Virus record (IMG/VR): IMGVR_UViG_2162886007_000107
Coordinates: 1-64,000 of that record
DNA length: 64,000 nucleotides
Direction: 5' to 3' (one strand)
Origin: a virus
Shown here: positions 12 through 63,807 of the stretch, one piece after another
How positions within the stretch are numbered: the first letter of the stretch is position 1
Layout: every line of letters starts with the position of its first letter
Position numbers and translations under genes: made by a program
Notes under the pieces: generated by a model
What the model was told of the DNA's origin: nothing
Databases searched by the model: none
The model's input: only the letters and a program-made list of their open reading frames with translations

Positions 12-851
12 TTAGTTAATGCAAAGGTTGTGGGTAACAATCCAGTCTTCTACTACAAACAACTTATCTTCACTGTCGATATTAATGCAGATCGTTTCAG
101 TCGGGTGTTCTTTAACGATGCCAACAATCTTTAAGCGACTTGCTGCAAATCTGGCAATGTCGTCTTGCTCGATGTCTCGATGTCTGGCAGTAACTACATA
201 ACCGTCTTCAACCTTTTGAAGATCAGCAATACCGCCAACACTCCATGCCAGGTGTTGGAAGTTAAGAGCACTTTGTTTGTGCTCGGTAATGTAGCGAACA
301 GTACCGTTGCTTGCTACGCAGCCTTCATTGGTGCGCATGGCTGTAGCAATAGCTCGACGGTCCTGGTAATGAAGTTCTTGTATTTCACGGTTAACAGTAT
401 GACGTTCGCCAATTAGCATCATGGCAATGTCTTTAACAAATTCATCGGCAATACGTTTCTCCGCACCACTGATCTCACCAACCAGAGGGATGGCGTATTC
501 GAACTCATTGAAGTGAGCAATGATGTCGGCGGTGGTAGTAACGTACGGAGCAACACTATTACCCTCGTATACTTCCCAAAGATGCAACGGATGACTTACA
601 GCCTCACGTCCGTCCTCAAAGATGAACTTGTAGCAGTCTGTGACGCCCTGTGGGATTACTTCGGTCACTGAGGCTATGTTACCCATAGGACCAATGACCT
701 TACTGCCCTCACGCAGTTCCTTTAAAGCTAGCCAACCGCCAGGTACTTTTACCTTTACGTTGTACGGCATGGCTTTACCCTTGCTAACCATATTAAGCTT
801 AGGTTCGTTATTAACCTTTAACCCTACCATGGATTTTAAGAGGTTGATCAT
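12..851 (-). CDS. Orphan class-3-type intein (Hint domain) protein
   Basis: A 279-aa protein that is almost entirely an intein. A 26-residue leader ending in SKGK is followed by a Hint domain from about residue 27 to N275, and only four residues (LCIN) remain before the stop. Block G reads VTHN, with T273, H274 and N275. Residue 27 is Ala, not Cys or Ser. The class-3 signature is present instead: Trp in block B (HLW, W92), Cys in block F (C255) and Thr in block G (T273). The middle (about 130-210) looks like a decayed LAGLIDADG endonuclease. The +1 residue is Leu, which cannot act as the usual Ser/Thr/Cys nucleophile, so full splicing is doubtful and cleavage is more plausible. An AGGA ribosome site lies about 8 nt before the ATG. 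A run of eight A on the coding strand follows the stop at the window edge. It could be a broken gene whose downstream extein lies outside the window. Confidence 0.75.
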   Translation of the reverse strand: MINLLKSMVGLKVNNEPKLNMVSKGKAMPYNVKVKVPGGWLALKELREGSKVIGPMGNIASVTEVIPQGVTDCYKFIFEDGREAVSHPLHLWEVYEGNSVAPYVTTTADIIAHFNEFEYAIPLVGEISGAEKRIADEFVKDIAMMLIGERHTVNREIQELHYQDRRAIATAMRTNEGCVASNGTVRYITEHKQSALNFQHLAWSVGGIADLQKVEDGYVVTARHRDIEQDDIARFAASRLKIVGIVKEHPTETICINIDSEDKLFVVEDWIVTHNLCIN

Positions 852-1011: not shown

Positions 1012-2610
1012 ATGTCTGAACAAGCCGATAAAAACATTGGTGAAGCGGTCGCAGAAACCGTTGCTCAGGATAACGAAGCAATTCGTGAAGTCTTGGGTAA
1101 GGATGATCCCTTTGTACAAGCATTGGACGTGAAAAACCGTCCGGTAATCGATGAGACCAAAAGCGGTCCTGTCTGTGGTTGCCCGGGCGTGATTCACGAG
1201 AATCCAGAATGCCAGTTGCCGGATGCAGCGGTGGTTGCATTGGCGGCTGCTAAAGACGTTAGCCTTGCTTTGGCTCAATACGAACACAATATGCCGGCAT
1301 ACTGGGTGAGCATGATGCGCTTGCCAGGCATGCAGTCGTTCTATCCGTTCCACGATCACAGTAAAACTGGCGATCTCGGCGGTCTGTCTCTGACCCGTGA
1401 TGACAGTCCTGAACAGGCTGCTTATCTGGAAGACTATCTGGACCCCAAGAATGTCGAACCGGCATTCAAGAAGTTCTGGTCGACCTTTATGCCAAACGCT
1501 CCACAAACCGGTGCGGTGTTCGTTTACTATGGCCTGGTCGGTGACACTGAGGTTGTTTACCTCCGTTATCAGCAGGATCATGTTCACCCAATGGAGTTCG
1601 TACTGCCTCGTGCTGAACTCACCTACTTCCTGCGTGGCTGGACTGAAGCGATCACCAGCGATCACATGCAGACTGAGATGGAAGACTGGTGCAAACATCC
1701 GACCGGGTACAAAGATCTCCAGAAGAAAGGCTACCGCTATAATGTGAGTGCCCTGGCTCTGGTTCTTCCTTTGAGCTACTTCTTCGCTGATGCCTTTGGC
1801 ATTAAAGAAGATCAGTTTGCAAACATGGTCAATGGTGATTTCAAGATTCTGGAAGACATCAAGAAAGAACTGTCCAATCGCTTCGACCGTTACGTTGCCG
1901 ATATCAGCCGCTTTGCCATCACCCTGAAGGACAAGGTCAAGTTCAAAGACCACAACCTGATGCTGGCGTTCAAGGGCACTGATGACTTCCGTGGTCTGGT
2001 TGTTTCCCTCGACAAGATCTATCCGAAGTTCCCTGAAGGCGGTCAGTACGAGTGTGGCGTCAATCCACTCAAACTGGAAGACTGGAAGACCGAGGGTGAT
2101 AACGTCAAGGTTGTTATCCGCAAGCTGATTCGCCTGTCGACGAAAGTCAACGACATGCTGAACAAGATGTACCGTGAACTGCCAAACAACAAATGGTGCG
2201 AAACCTGGTTGGATGGTTTGGTTCGTGAACGTCTGCTGGCTGCGAGCCACTTCCTGAAAGAGCTGTACCAGGCTAACCCTACTGACATCCGTCCATACGT
2301 GGAAGAGATGGCCAACAAGGTTCTGTCCGCTCTGAACGAACGTGGTGGCAACATCGGTCTCGATCTGACCAGCTGGGTCGTCTACCAGTACTTCGATAAC
2401 GGCAGTCCTCCTATCCCTGTGGTGGCGGAAGGTCTGAACTTCAAGCAAGAACTGTATAACCAGCACACCGAGCGTTTCATGGAAGTGCTGTATCAGTACC
2501 TGTTCCACGTGCGTAGCCCGTACATTCGTCCATACGTCCATAAGGTCGTAGCAGACAAGAATGACGGTATCCCTGTCGGCTCGATTCGTCCGGTCAACAA
2601 AGAAGAATAA
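1012..2610 (+). CDS. Unassigned, probable abundant virion protein (532 aa)
   Basis: No family was recognised. The strong AAGGAAAG ribosome site, heavy use of C- and G-ending codons and stand-alone position between a divergent region and a strong terminator suggest high expression, as for a structural protein. Residues 31-46 (DPFVQALDVKNRPVI) nearly repeat residues 20-34 of the tail tube protein at 43.4-44.3 kb, with 12 of 15 positions identical, so the two may share an assembly partner or an N-terminal arm. A Cys-Gly-Cys pair lies near residue 55. The remainder is mixed, with charged helical stretches, and has no signal peptide or membrane span. It is followed by a 15-bp hairpin shared with the convergent gene downstream. 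Confidence 0.7.
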   Translation: MSEQADKNIGEAVAETVAQDNEAIREVLGKDDPFVQALDVKNRPVIDETKSGPVCGCPGVIHENPECQLPDAAVVALAAAKDVSLALAQYEHNMPAYWVSMMRLPGMQSFYPFHDHSKTGDLGGLSLTRDDSPEQAAYLEDYLDPKNVEPAFKKFWSTFMPNAPQTGAVFVYYGLVGDTEVVYLRYQQDHVHPMEFVLPRAELTYFLRGWTEAITSDHMQTEMEDWCKHPTGYKDLQKKGYRYNVSALALVLPLSYFFADAFGIKEDQFANMVNGDFKILEDIKKELSNRFDRYVADISRFAITLKDKVKFKDHNLMLAFKGTDDFRGLVVSLDKIYPKFPEGGQYECGVNPLKLEDWKTEGDNVKVVIRKLIRLSTKVNDMLNKMYRELPNNKWCETWLDGLVRERLLAASHFLKELYQANPTDIRPYVEEMANKVLSALNERGGNIGLDLTSWVVYQYFDNGSPPIPVVAEGLNFKQELYNQHTERFMEVLYQYLFHVRSPYIRPYVHKVVADKNDGIPVGSIRPVNKEE

Positions 2611-2662: not shown

Positions 2663-3307
2663 TTATGGCTGCTTACCCAACCTGATGATATCAGCTTCCA
2701 GTTCAGCGATGTACACATGAGCTGCGGTCAGATCCTTCTCCAACTTCAATGCGCGAGCTGCATCGTTGTTGTTATCAGTGATCTTGCTTTTACGAAGAGT
2801 TTCATATGCATCGGCTTGATCCTTGGAAACATACCCAATGGTAGGGATGGTACCCAAGGAAACCGTTACAGGGATACCCACGTTGGCTTCTGTGTATTCC
2901 TTGATGTGTTGCAAGGTCAGAGCCAGTGTGTCTTTCATCGACGGAGGAACAGCACCAAAGCTAACAATAGCGCACATGTTCTCATAGCTTACGCCATCAA
3001 CCATCGGCCAGCTTTTGAGATACGTGGTAAGGACGTAAGTAGCTACGTCACTGCGATCCAGGAGACTAAGAACCTTGGCTCCTTTATCCCTGGCTCGTTG
3101 CAGTACTCTGGGGAAGTCCTCTACGGAAACGCCTACCGGTTTGAAGACCAACTCGTACAAGTCGAGTTTGAGAGACTCCATCTCGTGGAGGTTACGGATT
3201 GCTTCTACTTTGTAGTAGACGTCCGTTTTAACCACCGAATCAAATGGAGCCAGTGCTTCGAACCGGCCTCTGGCGTCAATAGACGGAATGATGTTGTTGT
3301 CTGCCAT
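2663..3307 (-). CDS. Unassigned protein (214 aa), operon with the 447-aa gene
   Basis: No family was recognised. It starts with MADNNIIPSIDARGRFEAL and is mostly predicted helix, with a C-terminal stretch (about 170-210) of alternating charged and hydrophobic residues that could form a coiled coil. There is no membrane span or signal peptide. The start lies 1-2 nt from the end of the upstream minus-strand gene, so the two are probably cotranscribed and translationally coupled. A virion role is inferred only from the structural-gene neighbourhood. Confidence 0.6.
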   Translation of the reverse strand: MADNNIIPSIDARGRFEALAPFDSVVKTDVYYKVEAIRNLHEMESLKLDLYELVFKPVGVSVEDFPRVLQRARDKGAKVLSLLDRSDVATYVLTTYLKSWPMVDGVSYENMCAIVSFGAVPPSMKDTLALTLQHIKEYTEANVGIPVTVSLGTIPTIGYVSKDQADAYETLRKSKITDNNNDAARALKLEKDLTAAHVYIAELEADIIRLGKQP

Positions 3308-3308
3308 A

Positions 3309-4652
3309 TCAGAGACCTTCTACTCCATCCTTCTGCATCTGCCAGCGAGTAAGTACCAGCAGTTTGGCTTTACCTACACGACGAGCAGCGTACATCTGAC
3401 CAAAACGCATTACACGAGTAATACCAGGCTGAGGCAGGCTGATATCAGTCATGACTTCGGCAGCAGCCAGGAGATCTTCCATGTTGCGGATGAACTCTTG
3501 AGTACTACGGGACAGCAGATCGAAGTCGCTATCCAGAGAAGAGATCAAGGAATAGTCAGGGTACAGGTTCAAAACCTTCTTCATGCCTTCGCGGTTATTC
3601 AACTTACCGACGATCGCCGTGTTCACGGACTTGTACATGAATGGCACGAACTGGGTGGATTTTATGACATGGTCAGTAGACATGTTTGGGGTAAGGAACT
3701 TATTGACCAGATCCATTCGTGTTTCGTTATCAGTGATCGGGCTGTAGTTACGAGCGCCGTTCGTTTTGTTCTCCAGGCCATAACGGTTGAAGAACGGGAT
3801 AACGTAGTACTCAATCGGGTTGAACAGATCAGGAATCTTTTCTTCCCACTTCGACAACGGGTATTGGGAGTCTTTGAGGATCTCGTTGCGCATTTGCTCA
3901 AAGAGTTGATCGTCAGAGTCTACACCATTACCCCACCACACATAGCGCCACCAGCCAGTAGTGGACATGCCAACGTTGGTGAGGTCCATCATCTCGAAAG
4001 AGATAGTCTCGCCATCGGTAACAGGCCACGCCGCGTTGTCAGTAACCGCATGCATGCGCTTGCTAATTACGTCAGGGGTTTCCTTCTTCAGACGTTCTTC
4101 CATTTGTTGGAAGTTCATCGGCATCAGGGAATCCATGTCTGCAAGTGCAACTGGGTGTACGATCGCAAAGGAGACCTTAGGGTATTCCCGCTTGAAGTAC
4201 TCGTCCGCAAACCAAAGATAGAAAAGCTGCTGCTCACCATCTACGAGATGGTTACCTGTTACGAAGCTGGGGAGCCAGTAACGATTGTTGGTAACCATTT
4301 CACCGATATCTTTAATCTCGATACCGTTAGAGAACTGAGCCTTGAGCAAAGCCAGAGTGTTGGGACGGTTGCCGGTGACGTTGCCTTTCTTGGCCTGATC
4401 CACCAGCCAGTTGCTGATTTCCAATTGCTTGTTAGCAATTGCAGTTGGCATCACAATCTCAACATCGTCTTCGATGCTCAAGAAGTTATGCAGTACCGAA
4501 GAACTAGGCTGATCGTTAAAAGCGAAGATGCCTTGGTCTTTGGAATACGTTTTCGACTTGTTGCTGATTTCACCGATGGGTGATACACTTTTTACCCCGT
4601 TATTGGCGAACTCGGCAATAGCCGCAAACGATAAATAGTTTTTAACACTCAT
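3309..4652 (-). CDS. Unassigned, probable virion protein (447 aa)
   Basis: The best start is the ATG at 4652, which has AGAGGT six nt upstream; a GTG two codons earlier has worse spacing. No family was recognised. The protein is soluble, with aromatic-rich segments in the middle (TGWWRYVWWGNG around residue 230) and a basic C-terminus (ARRVGKAKLLVLTRWQ). It is first in a two-gene minus-strand operon and lies only 33 bp from the divergent membrane-protein gene at 4686. A structural role is an inference from context. Confidence 0.65.
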   Translation of the reverse strand: MSVKNYLSFAAIAEFANNGVKSVSPIGEISNKSKTYSKDQGIFAFNDQPSSSVLHNFLSIEDDVEIVMPTAIANKQLEISNWLVDQAKKGNVTGNRPNTLALLKAQFSNGIEIKDIGEMVTNNRYWLPSFVTGNHLVDGEQQLFYLWFADEYFKREYPKVSFAIVHPVALADMDSLMPMNFQQMEERLKKETPDVISKRMHAVTDNAAWPVTDGETISFEMMDLTNVGMSTTGWWRYVWWGNGVDSDDQLFEQMRNEILKDSQYPLSKWEEKIPDLFNPIEYYVIPFFNRYGLENKTNGARNYSPITDNETRMDLVNKFLTPNMSTDHVIKSTQFVPFMYKSVNTAIVGKLNNREGMKKVLNLYPDYSLISSLDSDFDLLSRSTQEFIRNMEDLLAAAEVMTDISLPQPGITRVMRFGQMYAARRVGKAKLLVLTRWQMQKDGVEGL

Positions 4653-4685
4653 TGCCACACCTCTAACTAGTAAGGGACATACGTT

Positions 4686-51927: not shown

Positions 51928-54900
51928 ATGTCTTTGGACCGCTCTGAAATTCTGAAGATCGCTAAGGATATGCAGAATTACTTGGGGGCGCATTTACTTC
52001 CCAAGAAACTGATCGACGATGAATTGAACCTTGTCGACTCAGATGCCAGGACAGATGACGATACAGTTTTGGCGCATTTTGAAGAAGACAGTCTGCACGG
52101 TATCAAGACTGTTCGTTTTCTGAAAGACTTTGCTCGCTATCGAGCAACAGCTGACACAGAGACAAAGAACACCAGCTTTAAACGTACCGCAGAGATCTTC
52201 CGGCAACAGGGGATTAAGAACTATTTCTTCCTGTTGCAGTTGAACAACCCGATGCTCAAAGGTGTTGACCCTTACTCGGAGAATTTGACTAACGAGCAAG
52301 TTCTCTGGATTGCTGAGGAATGCCGGACCAACTTCTGGTACTTCCTTCGTGAGGTTTGTAAGGTTCGTGCTGACCGGTTCTTCCAAGCTAACCGCGGCAA
52401 CATCAGCTTTATCTGGAACTATCTGAACCACATCACCAGTTACATGATCATGCCTCGGCAGCAGGGTAAGTTCCAAGAGAACGAAACTCCTGTACGGATC
52501 ATTCCTCGTGAGATCGTTGGTAACACTAATCCTGCTGACCATTGGACAACTATTGGTCAGTTGCGCATCGGTGATCAGGTAGTAGACCATCACGGTGAGG
52601 CTAGTACTGTTATCGGTGTTCACCCACAAGGTAAAAAGCGTCTTTACAAGATTACCTTCAGTGACGGTCGTTCTACCAATGCTGGTGCTGAGCACTTGTG
52701 GTTAATTGGTGATCATTCGGATACTCTCAATGGAGAATGTATCTGGGACGAGAAGACCACCGCTGAATTGCTTTACAAGTGGCAGAACGGTGTCAAGATT
52801 GAACTGCCGTTGATCAAGCCTGAGGACAACTGCAAGAACAACTTCATCATCAAGCCTTACATCATGGGCCTGATGTTTGCAAACGAAGTTGTGGATGGAA
52901 AGATCTACGTAGATCCGATCAAGGAGATCACGGCTAATGTTCTGCGTCATGGCACACCTACTCATCTGACCTATCGGGTTGATAATGGTAGTCAGTACCT
53001 GGAACGGGCTGATAAATCGCCTCTGACCCTTAATCAGGAAGCTGGTCTCCCAGCAGACTACCTGGAAGGTTCTTTGCAGGACCGTAAGGACCTCTTAGAG
53101 GCGTTTCTACACAAATCTCGCACTACCTCTGAGGGTCGGTTCCTACCATCCTCTAACAACGTTCTAATGACTCAGATTCAATATCTGATTCGTGGCTTGG
53201 GCGGTACTGCCAAGAAAGTTGAAGGTGGGTTGCAGTTCACTCTGCAAGGCGATGCTGGTAACGAACTCTTCATTTCCGATATCAGTTATTTGGTCGATGC
53301 GGATTGTACTTGCATTGAGGTGGATAACGAGGAACATCTGTATTTGGCGGAAGACTTCATTGTCACGCACAACACAGTATCAGTTCAGGTAATTAACTTC
53401 TGGCTGACGTATATCAACGGCCGTGGTTACAAGACTCATGTCATTACCTTGAAGAGTGATAACCGTGCTCAGTTCATTGACGCGGTTAAACGGATGAGGG
53501 CCTGTGTTCCTAAGTATTTGGTTAACTCCACGTACAAGGACAAGGACGCAGGTACTTATCTAACGTATAAAGCTTTTGGTGATGAGCTGGTAAACACCTT
53601 AACCATTAGCGTTCCTCAGATCGGTAAGGATGCCGCGGGGGACATGGGTCGTGGTTTGACGGTAGGGACAACCTTCCTCGACGAACCGGCCTACATTTCG
53701 TGGATCGAGGAAATCGTCAACGGCGCGATGCCTTCTGCTTTGACAGAGATGGAGTTGATGAGGGCCAACGGGTTGCCGTACGGGATTGGTTACATTACAA
53801 CACCAAACACAACTCTGCACCCATCTGGCGACTACATGTTCAAGAAACTCATGTCTGCTACCGAGTGGCGTGAGAAGTTCTTTGATTCGTACAGTGAGAG
53901 TCATCTCAAAGACAGGCTCATTCGGGCTTCTCCAGAGAAGACGACCAGTCCGGCGATCAGCATGGTTTACAACTACATGCAGCTTGGCAAGAACAAGGAC
54001 TGGGTGAAGCGAACCATTGACGATCTGAAACTTAGTTTGTCTAAGGCTAAGATCGACTTGCTGTTGATGTGGGTTGAAGATGGCGAGAACCGATTGTTTG
54101 ACGACCTTACTCGTGAAGCGATCAGTAACGTTAAACGACAACCAGTGTGGAGTAAAGAGTATCGGAACAGTGGGTTGTTCATGGACTTCTTCTGTACCCA
54201 GGAAGAGTTAATCCGAATGGGCAAGAAAGAGTACAACGATCACTTCCTTATTGGGGTCGATACCTCCTCCGCTATCAACAAGGACGCCTGTACGCTCATC
54301 ATTCGCTCTATGAAGACTGGTAAGGTCATTGGCGTAGGTCGCTATGCCCTGGCTATGCTGGACGACGTTACAGCGATTATTGTGGACATGCTGGAAACCT
54401 TGCAAAACAGTCTGTTGGTCATTGAACGTAACTACGCTCACCACATGATCGATAGTCTGCTGATCCTTCTGCCTGCAAAAGGCATGGATCCATTCATGCG
54501 TATCTACAATCAGGTTTACCAAAGCCCGATTGACCATCAGAAAGAACTGGAGCTAGTGCAGTCAACCAAGTTCGCCTACAGAGATAAGAACTTCTACCTG
54601 AAGCTCAAGCATCTGTTTGGTTTCGTTACCACTGCTAACTCTCGGAAGATTCTGTATGGCTTGATTCAAGAAGCCGTGGCTGTGACTGGTTATGGTATCA
54701 ATTACGACAAGTTGGCTGATGAACTGATTAACCTCAGGACTAAGGGCGACCGTATTGACCACGACGCGAAACAGCACGATGACTTGGTAATCGCATGGCT
54801 GCTCACTTACTGGTTCATTAAGCTGGGTGCTAACAAACCGTTCTACGGAATCATGGGTGCGTTGGCTCTTAGCGATACACAGAACCTGTTGGATGCTGGC

Positions 54901-55158
54901 AAAGAAAGTAAACAGGCTCCGATGGATCCGAGTATCAAACTGTTCTTTGAACAAGTAAGGTTGAAAATCAATAACCTTACCGAGGAGCTGCTGCGTACTA
55001 CGGACAACATCCTGGCACTGCGGTTGGAAGCAGAGATTATGAAGTACTCTAAACTCCTGCCCCCAGAAACTGCCAAGCTGCTTACTATCGATACATTGCT
55101 GGAAAAGGCGCGTCTCGAAAGAACGCGTCGAGTTATGGAAAACAGAAGAGCAGCATAA
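51928..55158 (+). CDS. Large terminase subunit with an intein in its Walker A motif
   Basis: A 1,076-aa precursor, of which 775 residues are the phiKZ gp25-like packaging motor. ATPase motifs are RQQGK (K181) then T483 (split Walker A), Walker B FLDEP (D585, E586), and the ITTPN coupling segment. The nuclease domain has GVDTSS (D778), LVIERN (E833) and HDDLVIAW (D951/D952), an RNase H-like set that cuts the genome at each packaging end. Residues 182-482 are an intein (separate entry) that must be removed to restore GKT. Without splicing the motor cannot bind ATP. The gene is preceded by GGGG nine nt before the ATG and ends at a strong hairpin. The start at 51928 is preferred because the longer frame runs through the previous gene. 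Confidence 0.88.
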   Translation: MSLDRSEILKIAKDMQNYLGAHLLPKKLIDDELNLVDSDARTDDDTVLAHFEEDSLHGIKTVRFLKDFARYRATADTETKNTSFKRTAEIFRQQGIKNYFFLLQLNNPMLKGVDPYSENLTNEQVLWIAEECRTNFWYFLREVCKVRADRFFQANRGNISFIWNYLNHITSYMIMPRQQGKFQENETPVRIIPREIVGNTNPADHWTTIGQLRIGDQVVDHHGEASTVIGVHPQGKKRLYKITFSDGRSTNAGAEHLWLIGDHSDTLNGECIWDEKTTAELLYKWQNGVKIELPLIKPEDNCKNNFIIKPYIMGLMFANEVVDGKIYVDPIKEITANVLRHGTPTHLTYRVDNGSQYLERADKSPLTLNQEAGLPADYLEGSLQDRKDLLEAFLHKSRTTSEGRFLPSSNNVLMTQIQYLIRGLGGTAKKVEGGLQFTLQGDAGNELFISDISYLVDADCTCIEVDNEEHLYLAEDFIVTHNTVSVQVINFWLTYINGRGYKTHVITLKSDNRAQFIDAVKRMRACVPKYLVNSTYKDKDAGTYLTYKAFGDELVNTLTISVPQIGKDAAGDMGRGLTVGTTFLDEPAYISWIEEIVNGAMPSALTEMELMRANGLPYGIGYITTPNTTLHPSGDYMFKKLMSATEWREKFFDSYSESHLKDRLIRASPEKTTSPAISMVYNYMQLGKNKDWVKRTIDDLKLSLSKAKIDLLLMWVEDGENRLFDDLTREAISNVKRQPVWSKEYRNSGLFMDFFCTQEELIRMGKKEYNDHFLIGVDTSSAINKDACTLIIRSMKTGKVIGVGRYALAMLDDVTAIIVDMLETLQNSLLVIERNYAHHMIDSLLILLPAKGMDPFMRIYNQVYQSPIDHQKELELVQSTKFAYRDKNFYLKLKHLFGFVTTANSRKILYGLIQEAVAVTGYGINYDKLADELINLRTKGDRIDHDAKQHDDLVIAWLLTYWFIKLGANKPFYGIMGALALSDTQNLLDAGKESKQAPMDPSIKLFFEQVRLKINNLTEELLRTTDNILALRLEAEIMKYSKLLPPETAKLLTIDTLLEKARLERTRRVMENRRAA
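52471..53373 (+). other. Class-3-type intein inside the terminase P-loop (301 aa)
   Basis: The intein lies exactly between Lys181 and Thr483 of the Walker A motif (QQGK, then T). It starts with Phe, not a nucleophile. Block B has HLW (W258), block F has Cys (C462 in CTCIEV), and block G has VTHN (T480, N482). Trp-Cys-Thr is the class 3 signature, in which the block F Cys replaces the N-terminal nucleophile. The +1 residue Thr is suitable for splicing. The central YIMGLMFANEV segment (about 311-321) looks like a decayed LAGLIDADG endonuclease motif, so homing is probably lost. Confidence 0.8.
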
Positions 55159-62778: not shown

Positions 62779-62866
62779 GGAGAGATTCCCGAGTGGCCAA
62801 AGGGATCAGACTGTAAATCTGACGTGCGATCGCACTTCGTAGGTTCGAATCCTTCTCTCTCCACCA
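62779..62866 (+). tRNA. tRNA-Tyr (GTA)
   Basis: Acceptor stem GGAGAGA pairs with TCTCTCC and is followed by ACCA, so CCA is encoded. Anticodon loop CTGTAAA gives GTA. A long variable arm (GTGCGATCGCAC) is present, as expected for bacterial tRNA-Tyr. The T-arm GGTTCGAATCC is intact. A TATGTTATAC element lies 14 nt upstream. Confidence 0.95.
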
Positions 62867-62870
62867 TGTT

Positions 62871-63010
62871 TATTCATAAGCCAAGTATCCAACAAGCGTA
62901 AGCCTGGATGCAGGGAACCACAAAGCCAACGCGCTGCCAGTGATTGGTTAGGCAAGCAGAAAGTAACATTACAGCCGATGGTACGGTGAAATCTACTTGA
63001 CTTATGAATA
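62871..63010 (+). repeat. Inverted repeat right after tRNA-Tyr (17-bp stem)
   Basis: TATTCATAAGCCAAGTA (62871-62887) pairs with TACTTGACTTATGAATA (62994-63010), one mismatch. It begins 5 nt after the tRNA CCA end and fills the spacer to tRNA-Asp. Confidence 0.7.
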
Positions 63011-63018
63011 GCTTTATT

Positions 63019-63095
63019 GCGGCCATAGTTCAGCTGGTTAGAATACCCGCCTGTCACGCGGGTGGTCAGGGGTTCGAGTCCCCTTGGTCGCGCCA
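63019..63095 (+). tRNA. tRNA-Asp (GTC)
   Basis: Acceptor GCGGCCA pairs with TGGTCGC (one G-U) followed by GCCA. Anticodon loop CTGTCAC gives GTC. D and T arms are complete. Confidence 0.95.
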
Positions 63096-63098
63096 AAC

Positions 63099-63161
63099 GT
63101 GTAGCTCTTGGCCCTGTGGGTCTCCTTGGTTGGTGTGGTGTTGTTACGCCAAGAGCTACAC
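63099..63161 (+). repeat. Inverted repeat right after tRNA-Asp (14-bp perfect stem)
   Basis: GTGTAGCTCTTGGC (63099-63112) pairs exactly with GCCAAGAGCTACAC (63148-63161), starting 4 nt after the CCA. Confidence 0.75.
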
Positions 63162-63511
63162 CCTATATTCGACGCCCCGCTACCCCGCGCCCTCGCCCGA
63201 AGAAAACACTTCCTGATTGTGGTGAGTCAGGTTCTGAGCATTTAATGCAGTGTAGTAAGAGTCTATATCGCCACGCATATTCCTTCTTCAGGTTTCATCT
63301 AGGTTTCCTGGAGAGAATCTTTGCCATTGTCCCCTGGTCCGGGCTGACGTTAACCGTGTCTATGGCAGAGTAAAGTTGTCCTGGCAAATAAGCCGGATAG
63401 AGCAAACGGTAGTTTCGTATTAAAAGTTGAAAGCAGCCTGGGATGCAGTTTGAGGTGGGTCCCCTATCGACAAGGCTAGGTTTAAAGCACTTACACTGAT
63501 CCGATTTATTA
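63162..63511. other. Spacer between tRNA-Asp and tRNA-Trp (350 bp)
   Basis: No gene is supported. A small CCTGA...TCAGG hairpin occurs near 63211-63230. Short open frames lack ribosome sites. No additional tRNA fold was recognised. Confidence 0.5.
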
Positions 63512-63587
63512 GGCCTAGTAGCTCAACTGGCAGAGCATCGGTCTCCAAAACCGAAGGTTCCAGGTTCGACTCCTGGCTACGCCGCCA
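63512..63587 (+). tRNA. tRNA-Trp (CCA anticodon)
   Basis: Anticodon loop CTCCAAA gives CCA. Acceptor GGCCTAG pairs with CTACGCC with one C.C mismatch at the fourth pair, followed by GCCA. T-arm CCAGG-TTCGACT-CCTGG is intact. The mismatch might lower stability but does not prevent the fold. Confidence 0.9.
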
Positions 63588-63592
63588 AATTC

Positions 63593-63630
63593 CCTTACCA
63601 GATCCATTGATCAAGGACAACCTGGTAAGG
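63593..63630 (+). repeat. Inverted repeat right after tRNA-Trp (9-bp stem)
   Basis: CCTTACCAG (63593-63601) pairs exactly with CTGGTAAGG (63622-63630), starting 6 nt after the CCA. Confidence 0.7.
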
Positions 63631-63731
63631 TAAGAAAACACGTAGGAGCGTGCGACGGTCTACCTCCCTTGACTTAGGTCATGAGCAACGTGCGGTATAA
63701 GTCCGAAGACACGTCAAGATTTTTGTTACAT

Positions 63732-63807
63732 TCCGTGTTAGCTCAGTTGGTAGAGCAAACGACTGTTAATCGTTTGGTCCCTGGTTCGAGTCCAGGACAC
63801 GGAGCCA
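63732..63807 (+). tRNA. tRNA-Asn (GTT)
   Basis: Acceptor TCCGTGT pairs with ACACGGA, followed by GCCA. Anticodon loop CTGTTAA gives GTT. All arms are complete. Confidence 0.95.

Follow-up and report, generated by a model that had tools for sequence, protein, structure and literature searches.

The terminase large subunit gene of the giant bacteriophage studied here very probably carries a class 3 intein of long standing that is no longer mobile, has become fixed in the TerL P-loop of the EL-like jumbo phages (phiKZ superfamily) and splices to leave a 775-aa terminase. The DNA analysed, hereafter called the window, comprises the first 64 kb of a virus record of 236,430 bp. The precursor encoded by the gene matched the terminase large subunit family phrog_2 (E=2e-43, PHROG search) and is the orthologue of Pseudomonas phage EL gp11. 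The features of the gene are as follows, with the basis of each assignment in brackets.

51928..55158, + strand: terminase large subunit precursor of 1076 aa (775 aa once spliced), from the start ATG at 51928 to the stop at 55158.
51928..52470, + strand: N-extein, 181 aa, with the C-terminal end MPRQQGK containing the Walker A Lys, K181 (translation, alignment).
52471..53373, + strand: class 3 intein, 301 aa, F1 to N301, precursor residues 182-482 (translation, alignments).
52471..52812, + strand: N-terminal splicing half of the Hint domain, intein residues 1-114 (all-beta in the model; PDB alignments).
52693..52701, + strand: block B, H75-L76-W77, the catalytic His and the class 3 Trp (B:12) (alignments).
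52813..53256, + strand: LAGLIDADG-type endonuclease domain, residues 115-262, catalytically dead (model, alignment).
52855..52887, + strand: LAGLIDADG helix 1, with Asn138 instead of the catalytic Asp (allele alignment).
53083..53121, + strand: LAGLIDADG helix 2, LLEAFLHKSR, with Ser216 instead of the catalytic Asp (allele alignment).
53257..53373, + strand: C-terminal splicing half of the Hint domain, blocks F and G (TIGR01443 in the genome search, PDB alignments).
53311..53313, + strand: Cys281, block F:4, the initiating nucleophile; Cys279 is adjacent, giving C-x-C (alignments).
53365..53373, + strand: block G, T299-H300-N301 (alignments).
53374..55158, + strand: C-extein, 594 aa, beginning TVSVQVINF, with the Walker A Thr as +1 nucleophile (translation, alignment).

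A sequence-only reading of this DNA had put the insertion point of the intein precisely at the Lys-Thr junction in the Walker A loop (QQGK/T), and empty sites in relatives establish these boundaries. Intein-free homologues were aligned, namely VP4B, Kc263 and AH04 together with phiKZ-type, Agricanvirus and Erskinevirus terminases. The terminases of VP4B, Kc263, AH04, the phiKZ-type phage OMKO1, Ea35-70 and EaH2 have no insert and read RQ[QSTH]GK-[TS]V, with the alignment gap falling exactly between GK and T/S, that is, at the proposed boundaries. These exact empty sites rule out a chance in-frame insert. The 301-residue length of the insert, its end VTHN and the spliced length of 775 aa were borne out by translation (exteins of 181 and 594 aa). 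Full-length relatives were found by tblastn in Pseudomonas phage EL (60%), Erwinia RisingSun, Shewanella FishSpeaker, Klebsiella Miami, Vibrio Aphrodite1 and Aeromonas D6. The base composition is equal in intein and exteins (47–48% each), which suggests a long residence.

Curated profiles barely detected the terminase intein, so that automatic annotation could easily overlook it: Pfam Hom_end_hint gave an E of 0.017, below the cut-off, and TIGR01443 was slightly under the cut-off in the protein scan and over it in the genome scan. Several RefSeq records name terminases and helicases of this kind 'DarB-like antirestriction'; we rejected this name, as family searches gave terminase and intein matches. 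The same name stands in RefSeq for intein-containing terminases and helicases in NC_070950, NC_042100, NC_070936, NC_048747 and others, and is probably a misannotation via the shared intein.

The assignment to class 3 proposed earlier was upheld. The intein has W77, C281 and T299 and no nucleophile at position 1 (Phe1), and the motifs on which the proposal was based (HLW, CTCIEV and VTHN) are all present. A PDB sequence search gave the class 3 DnaB inteins 6bs8, 6rix and 6riy as best matches; these three share its W, C, H, T and HN columns, C281 being aligned with the catalytic Cys of 6bs8/6rix. An alignment of 22 inteins shows no variation at W77, C281, T299, H75, H300 or N301, and the triplet W77/C281/T299 is likewise constant in 42 distinct relatives. 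None of 42 distinct inteins begins with Cys, Ser or Thr; the first residue is Phe in the window and F, Y, M, L, Q, P, A, E, N or D in the relatives. When the family profile was compared with the gp41-1 structures, the F65W/D107C variant scored 60.1 bits and the wild type 46.6, and the difference was located in the aligned segments with the Trp and Cys columns. The class is less rare than had been stated, since 1701 class 3 inteins are listed in PMC7891396.

Phe1 and the invariant class 3 triplet make the class 3 route the best reading of how the terminase intein would splice. The boundaries, motif residues, predicted fold and constraint are observations on this gene and its relatives; the chemistry we infer from the family. 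In class 3 inteins the block F Cys attacks the N-terminal junction, followed by transfer to the +1 residue and Asn cyclisation (PMC4031507, PMC7664689, PMC5222942), and every residue needed for this is present in the window intein, including the C-terminal Asn (N301) and a nucleophilic +1 residue (Thr). The open reading frame would thus yield a precursor of 1076 aa with an interrupted Walker A motif, in which the Lys181-Phe1 bond would be attacked by Cys281 of block F (C462 in precursor numbering) with help from H75, T299 and W77. The N-extein would then be transferred to Thr+1, Asn301 would cyclise, and ligation of Lys181 to Thr would give the 775-aa terminase with the loop RQQGKT. Terminase inteins of mycobacteriophages are described as splicing competent in PMC5050341. 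The window allele carries T293A and D294E just before block G, at positions conserved in the other 32 EL-like alleles, and forms the longest branch in its close group; its splicing could therefore be slower. In two related contigs (L054 and L055) the intein begins with Pro, and the first scissile bond would be Lys-Pro, which is unusual for splicing.

In the AlphaFold model of the terminase intein (pLDDT 89.6) a LAGLIDADG-type domain interrupts a Hint domain. A Foldseek search with this model gave PI-SceI and VMA inteins as best matches, followed by class 3 mini-inteins over the Hint part. The endonuclease core had been judged decayed, and indeed both catalytic acids are replaced, by Asn138 and Ser216; neither motif 1 (MGLMFAN) nor motif 2 (AFLHKSR) of the window retains one. 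Among the distinct EL-like alleles the second acid is lost in 33 of 33 and the first in 32 of 33; the allele that keeps the first acid (L044) has a deletion directly after it. Since the endonuclease has lost its ability to cleave, homing of the intein has ceased and it passes on together with its gene. In the terminase inteins of L044 (272 aa) and of KpGz_1 (L032, 257 aa) the endonuclease domain is partly lost, which places them en route to mini-inteins.

The distribution of the intein was determined in 46 contigs found with a profile of the C-extein, to which presence of the intein makes no difference. The intein is present in 40 of these and the site is empty in 6, all six empty-site terminases being at most 53% identical to that of the window. 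The 33 EL-like rows form one clade with the intein in every row, in agreement with the earlier suggestion that it may be fixed. Intein and extein distances are correlated (Mantel r 0.907; 0 of 2000 permutations), indicating vertical descent of the intein. The extreme branch of KpGz_1 was left out of later trees. In the Vibrio phages USC-1 and Aphrodite1 (L078, L079) the C-extein has a pS of 0.15 versus 0.4–0.5 for intein plus N-extein, which suggests recombination within the terminase gene.

Selection was estimated as dN/dS from related alleles that form eight close pairs. In the dead domain there were 291 synonymous and 107 nonsynonymous differences (dN/dS 0.088), the splicing halves gave values of 0.067 and 0.034, and the exteins 0.051 and 0.039. 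Purifying selection thus acts even on the dead endonuclease domain. Endonuclease domains may persist by assisting splicing irrespective of nuclease activity (PMC8966425), and such an aid is a sufficient explanation for this constraint. Two reasons probably account for retention of the terminase intein: nothing short of a precise deletion can remove it, and the dead domain continues to aid folding of the splicing domain.

Alternatively, the intein could act as a regulatory switch, splicing and hence packaging being held back under some condition, for example oxidation via Cys279-x-Cys281. Its fixation in 33 of 33 EL-like alleles though the endonuclease is dead, the purifying selection on a non-splicing domain and the C-x-C motif in 24 of the 33 alleles are in line with this, and a disulfide on the catalytic Cys reversibly blocks the class 3 DnaBi1 intein (PMC6195587). 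However, the second Cys is absent from 9 of the 33 alleles, so that it is no clade-wide requirement, and the constraint on the dead domain is already accounted for by aid to splicing. We consider the switch unlikely; splicing-controlled packaging is a possible lead, for which the case is circumstantial. Still less probable, and hardly credible for this gene, is that the intein is mobile and spread recently by homing. In its favour, relatives with intact LAGLIDADG motifs at the same site do exist (only Miami, N1M2 and PS2), and presence is patchy outside the EL-like clade (Aphrodite-type Vibrio phages have the intein, VP4B and pTD1 do not). Against this, both catalytic acids are gone in the window and in practically all EL-like alleles and the intein tree mirrors the extein tree, and we reject recent endonuclease-driven spread for the EL-like clade on these two grounds. 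A non-splicing relic in a dead or replaced terminase gene is very improbable too, for beside some unusual residues near block G, none of them direct evidence, stand an open frame with all catalytic residues kept and strong purifying selection on both exteins in relatives.

The old, fixed terminase intein adds to a known kind, the same-site intein of EL gp11 and other phiKZ-like jumbo phages and the published K/T terminase inteins. The gp11 intein of Pseudomonas phage EL (NC_007623) is orthologous, with the same Lys/Thr site, the class 3 triplet and a dead endonuclease; it differs in sequence (inteins ~40% identical, precursors 60%), and the window allele is the shorter by 12 residues, its second endonuclease motif having decayed further. 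Phage EL (L002, L087) has four inteins of the family, in gp11, near 45.5 kb, near 48.5 kb and in gp166. InBase lists PhiEL inteins in ORF11, ORF39 and ORF40. The mycobacterial class 3 DnaB inteins match in Hint fold and in the aligned columns given above, but they are mini-inteins, whereas the window intein carries a dead LAGLIDADG domain. The Lys/Thr P-loop is the 'classic' TerL intein site (mycobacteriophage TerL1-a) according to Kelley et al. 2016 (PMC5050341). The TerL1-a intein, however, belongs to another terminase family and other phages, and the terminase inteins there are distantly related (~23–25% in tblastn). The window intein is a well-resolved case of fixation in an essential motor, at the single position where ATP binding is blocked, and since the endonuclease is dead clade-wide it lends itself to studying why such inteins persist.

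An intein-profile search of the record located a second intein at 27-764 (− strand), in an open reading frame that stands where a helicase gene would be. The features of this locus are listed below.

12..851, − strand: free-standing class 3-type intein ORF, 279 aa, where the helicase gene would be (profile search, comparison).
27..773, − strand: intein part of this ORF, 249 aa, then LCIN and the stop (translation).
1012..2610, + strand: EL gp167 homologue, a conserved neighbour of the helicase/orphan locus.
2663..4658, − strand: EL gp168 and gp169 homologues, likewise conserved neighbours.

The ORF has 26 residues followed by AMPYNVKV...HPLHLW...TICINI...VTHN, and its match is the intein that interrupts the phage EL helicase gp166 at GSGK/T. 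Helicase exteins were not found anywhere in the 236,430-bp record, which also lacks a Helicase_C domain; EL and the relative G002 have two each. The same orphan intein stands at the same locus in G004 (L124), G011 (L163) and its sister contig L165, G009 (L167) and G035 (L168), giving four orphan lineages: the window, G004, G011/L165 and G009/G035. Helicase and intein occur together in 15 relatives, and an intact helicase without intein in 4. An assembly artefact at the record end was rejected, since the same arrangement with the same neighbours lies inside contigs G004, G011, L165 and G035.

The orphan intein is complete in the window, G011 and G009/G035, with C-flanks LCIN, SFS and GEC, respectively; that of G004 ends VTR plus stop and has lost the final Asn. 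HLW or HQW and the block F Cys are kept in all four lineages, and recognisable endonuclease acids were not found in these phage orphans. The AlphaFold model of the window orphan has a moderate pLDDT of 76 and shows a Hint part and a LAGLIDADG-like part. An AGGAC ribosome-binding site precedes each orphan start, as it does many intact helicases, and in three of the four orphans a stem-loop lies within tens of bases past the stop, resembling the terminator that follows the intact helicase gene of G002. The window orphan has only a poly-A stretch before the record end, with a stem-loop at the other end of the record. These start and terminator signals indicate that the helicase body was removed on both sides of the intein, leaving an expressible gene. 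By eye, the G011 ORF (MVNIFA-SGK/AMP) resembles a fusion of the helicase start, which reads MFNLFSV in relatives, with the codons that flank the intein.

Between the G009 and G035 orphan inteins 16 of 756 sites differ, all synonymously, and between L163 and L165 there are 9 differing sites, 7 of them synonymous. Over both pairs 23 of 25 differences are synonymous, versus ~23–32% expected without selection (P below 1e-9). Since each pair consists of two orphans, the constraint must date from after the loss of the helicase. Two orphan lineages (G011/L165 and G009/G035) are thus under purifying selection; the window orphan has no close pair, and selection on it is suggested solely by its open frame and kept motifs. 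Decayed pseudogenes of the kind described below were rejected on the catalytic residues kept in 4 of 4 lineages and on the 23 of 25 synonymous differences in the two non-window lineages. A single origin of the orphans followed by horizontal spread is compatible with the intein tree (AU p 0.107), although the terminase tree calls for 4 changes in orphan status.

A search of literature outside the subscription journals for orphan or free-standing inteins gave nothing, and the only precedents found were a pseudogene and a protein that has kept its nuclease. Arth_1007 of Arthrobacter FB24 is an intein without host protein, with exteins of 52 and 14 aa (PMC3196547), and in this resembles the window orphan; it is, however, a drifting pseudogene without the block F Cys, whereas the phage orphans retain the W and C and two lineages are under purifying selection. 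The yeast HO endonuclease is thought to be an intein-derived, domesticated, free-standing protein (PMC7282806); HO retains endonuclease activity, whereas the phage orphans retain splicing residues. The orphans matter more than the terminase intein, as an intein is expected to drift after loss of its host protein (argued in PMC3196547) and yet purifying selection persists in two lineages; gain by an intein of a function of its own thereby becomes directly testable. The orphans appear to be inteins that survived the loss of their host gene and gained a selected function, the obvious candidates being DNA binding by the nuclease-dead LAGLIDADG fold and self-cleavage by the Hint domain. The wider proposition, which we regard as evenly balanced, is that EL-like class 3 inteins are useful in their own right: the helicase locus would repeatedly have lost the helicase and kept the intein as a free-standing expressed gene (12-851 in the window and three further lineages), under selection other than for restoring a host protein, and the terminase intein, fixed and with a dead nuclease, may in the same way have a use to the phage other than splicing.

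Four tRNA genes (Tyr, Asp, Trp and Asn) are clustered at 62779-63807 of the window.
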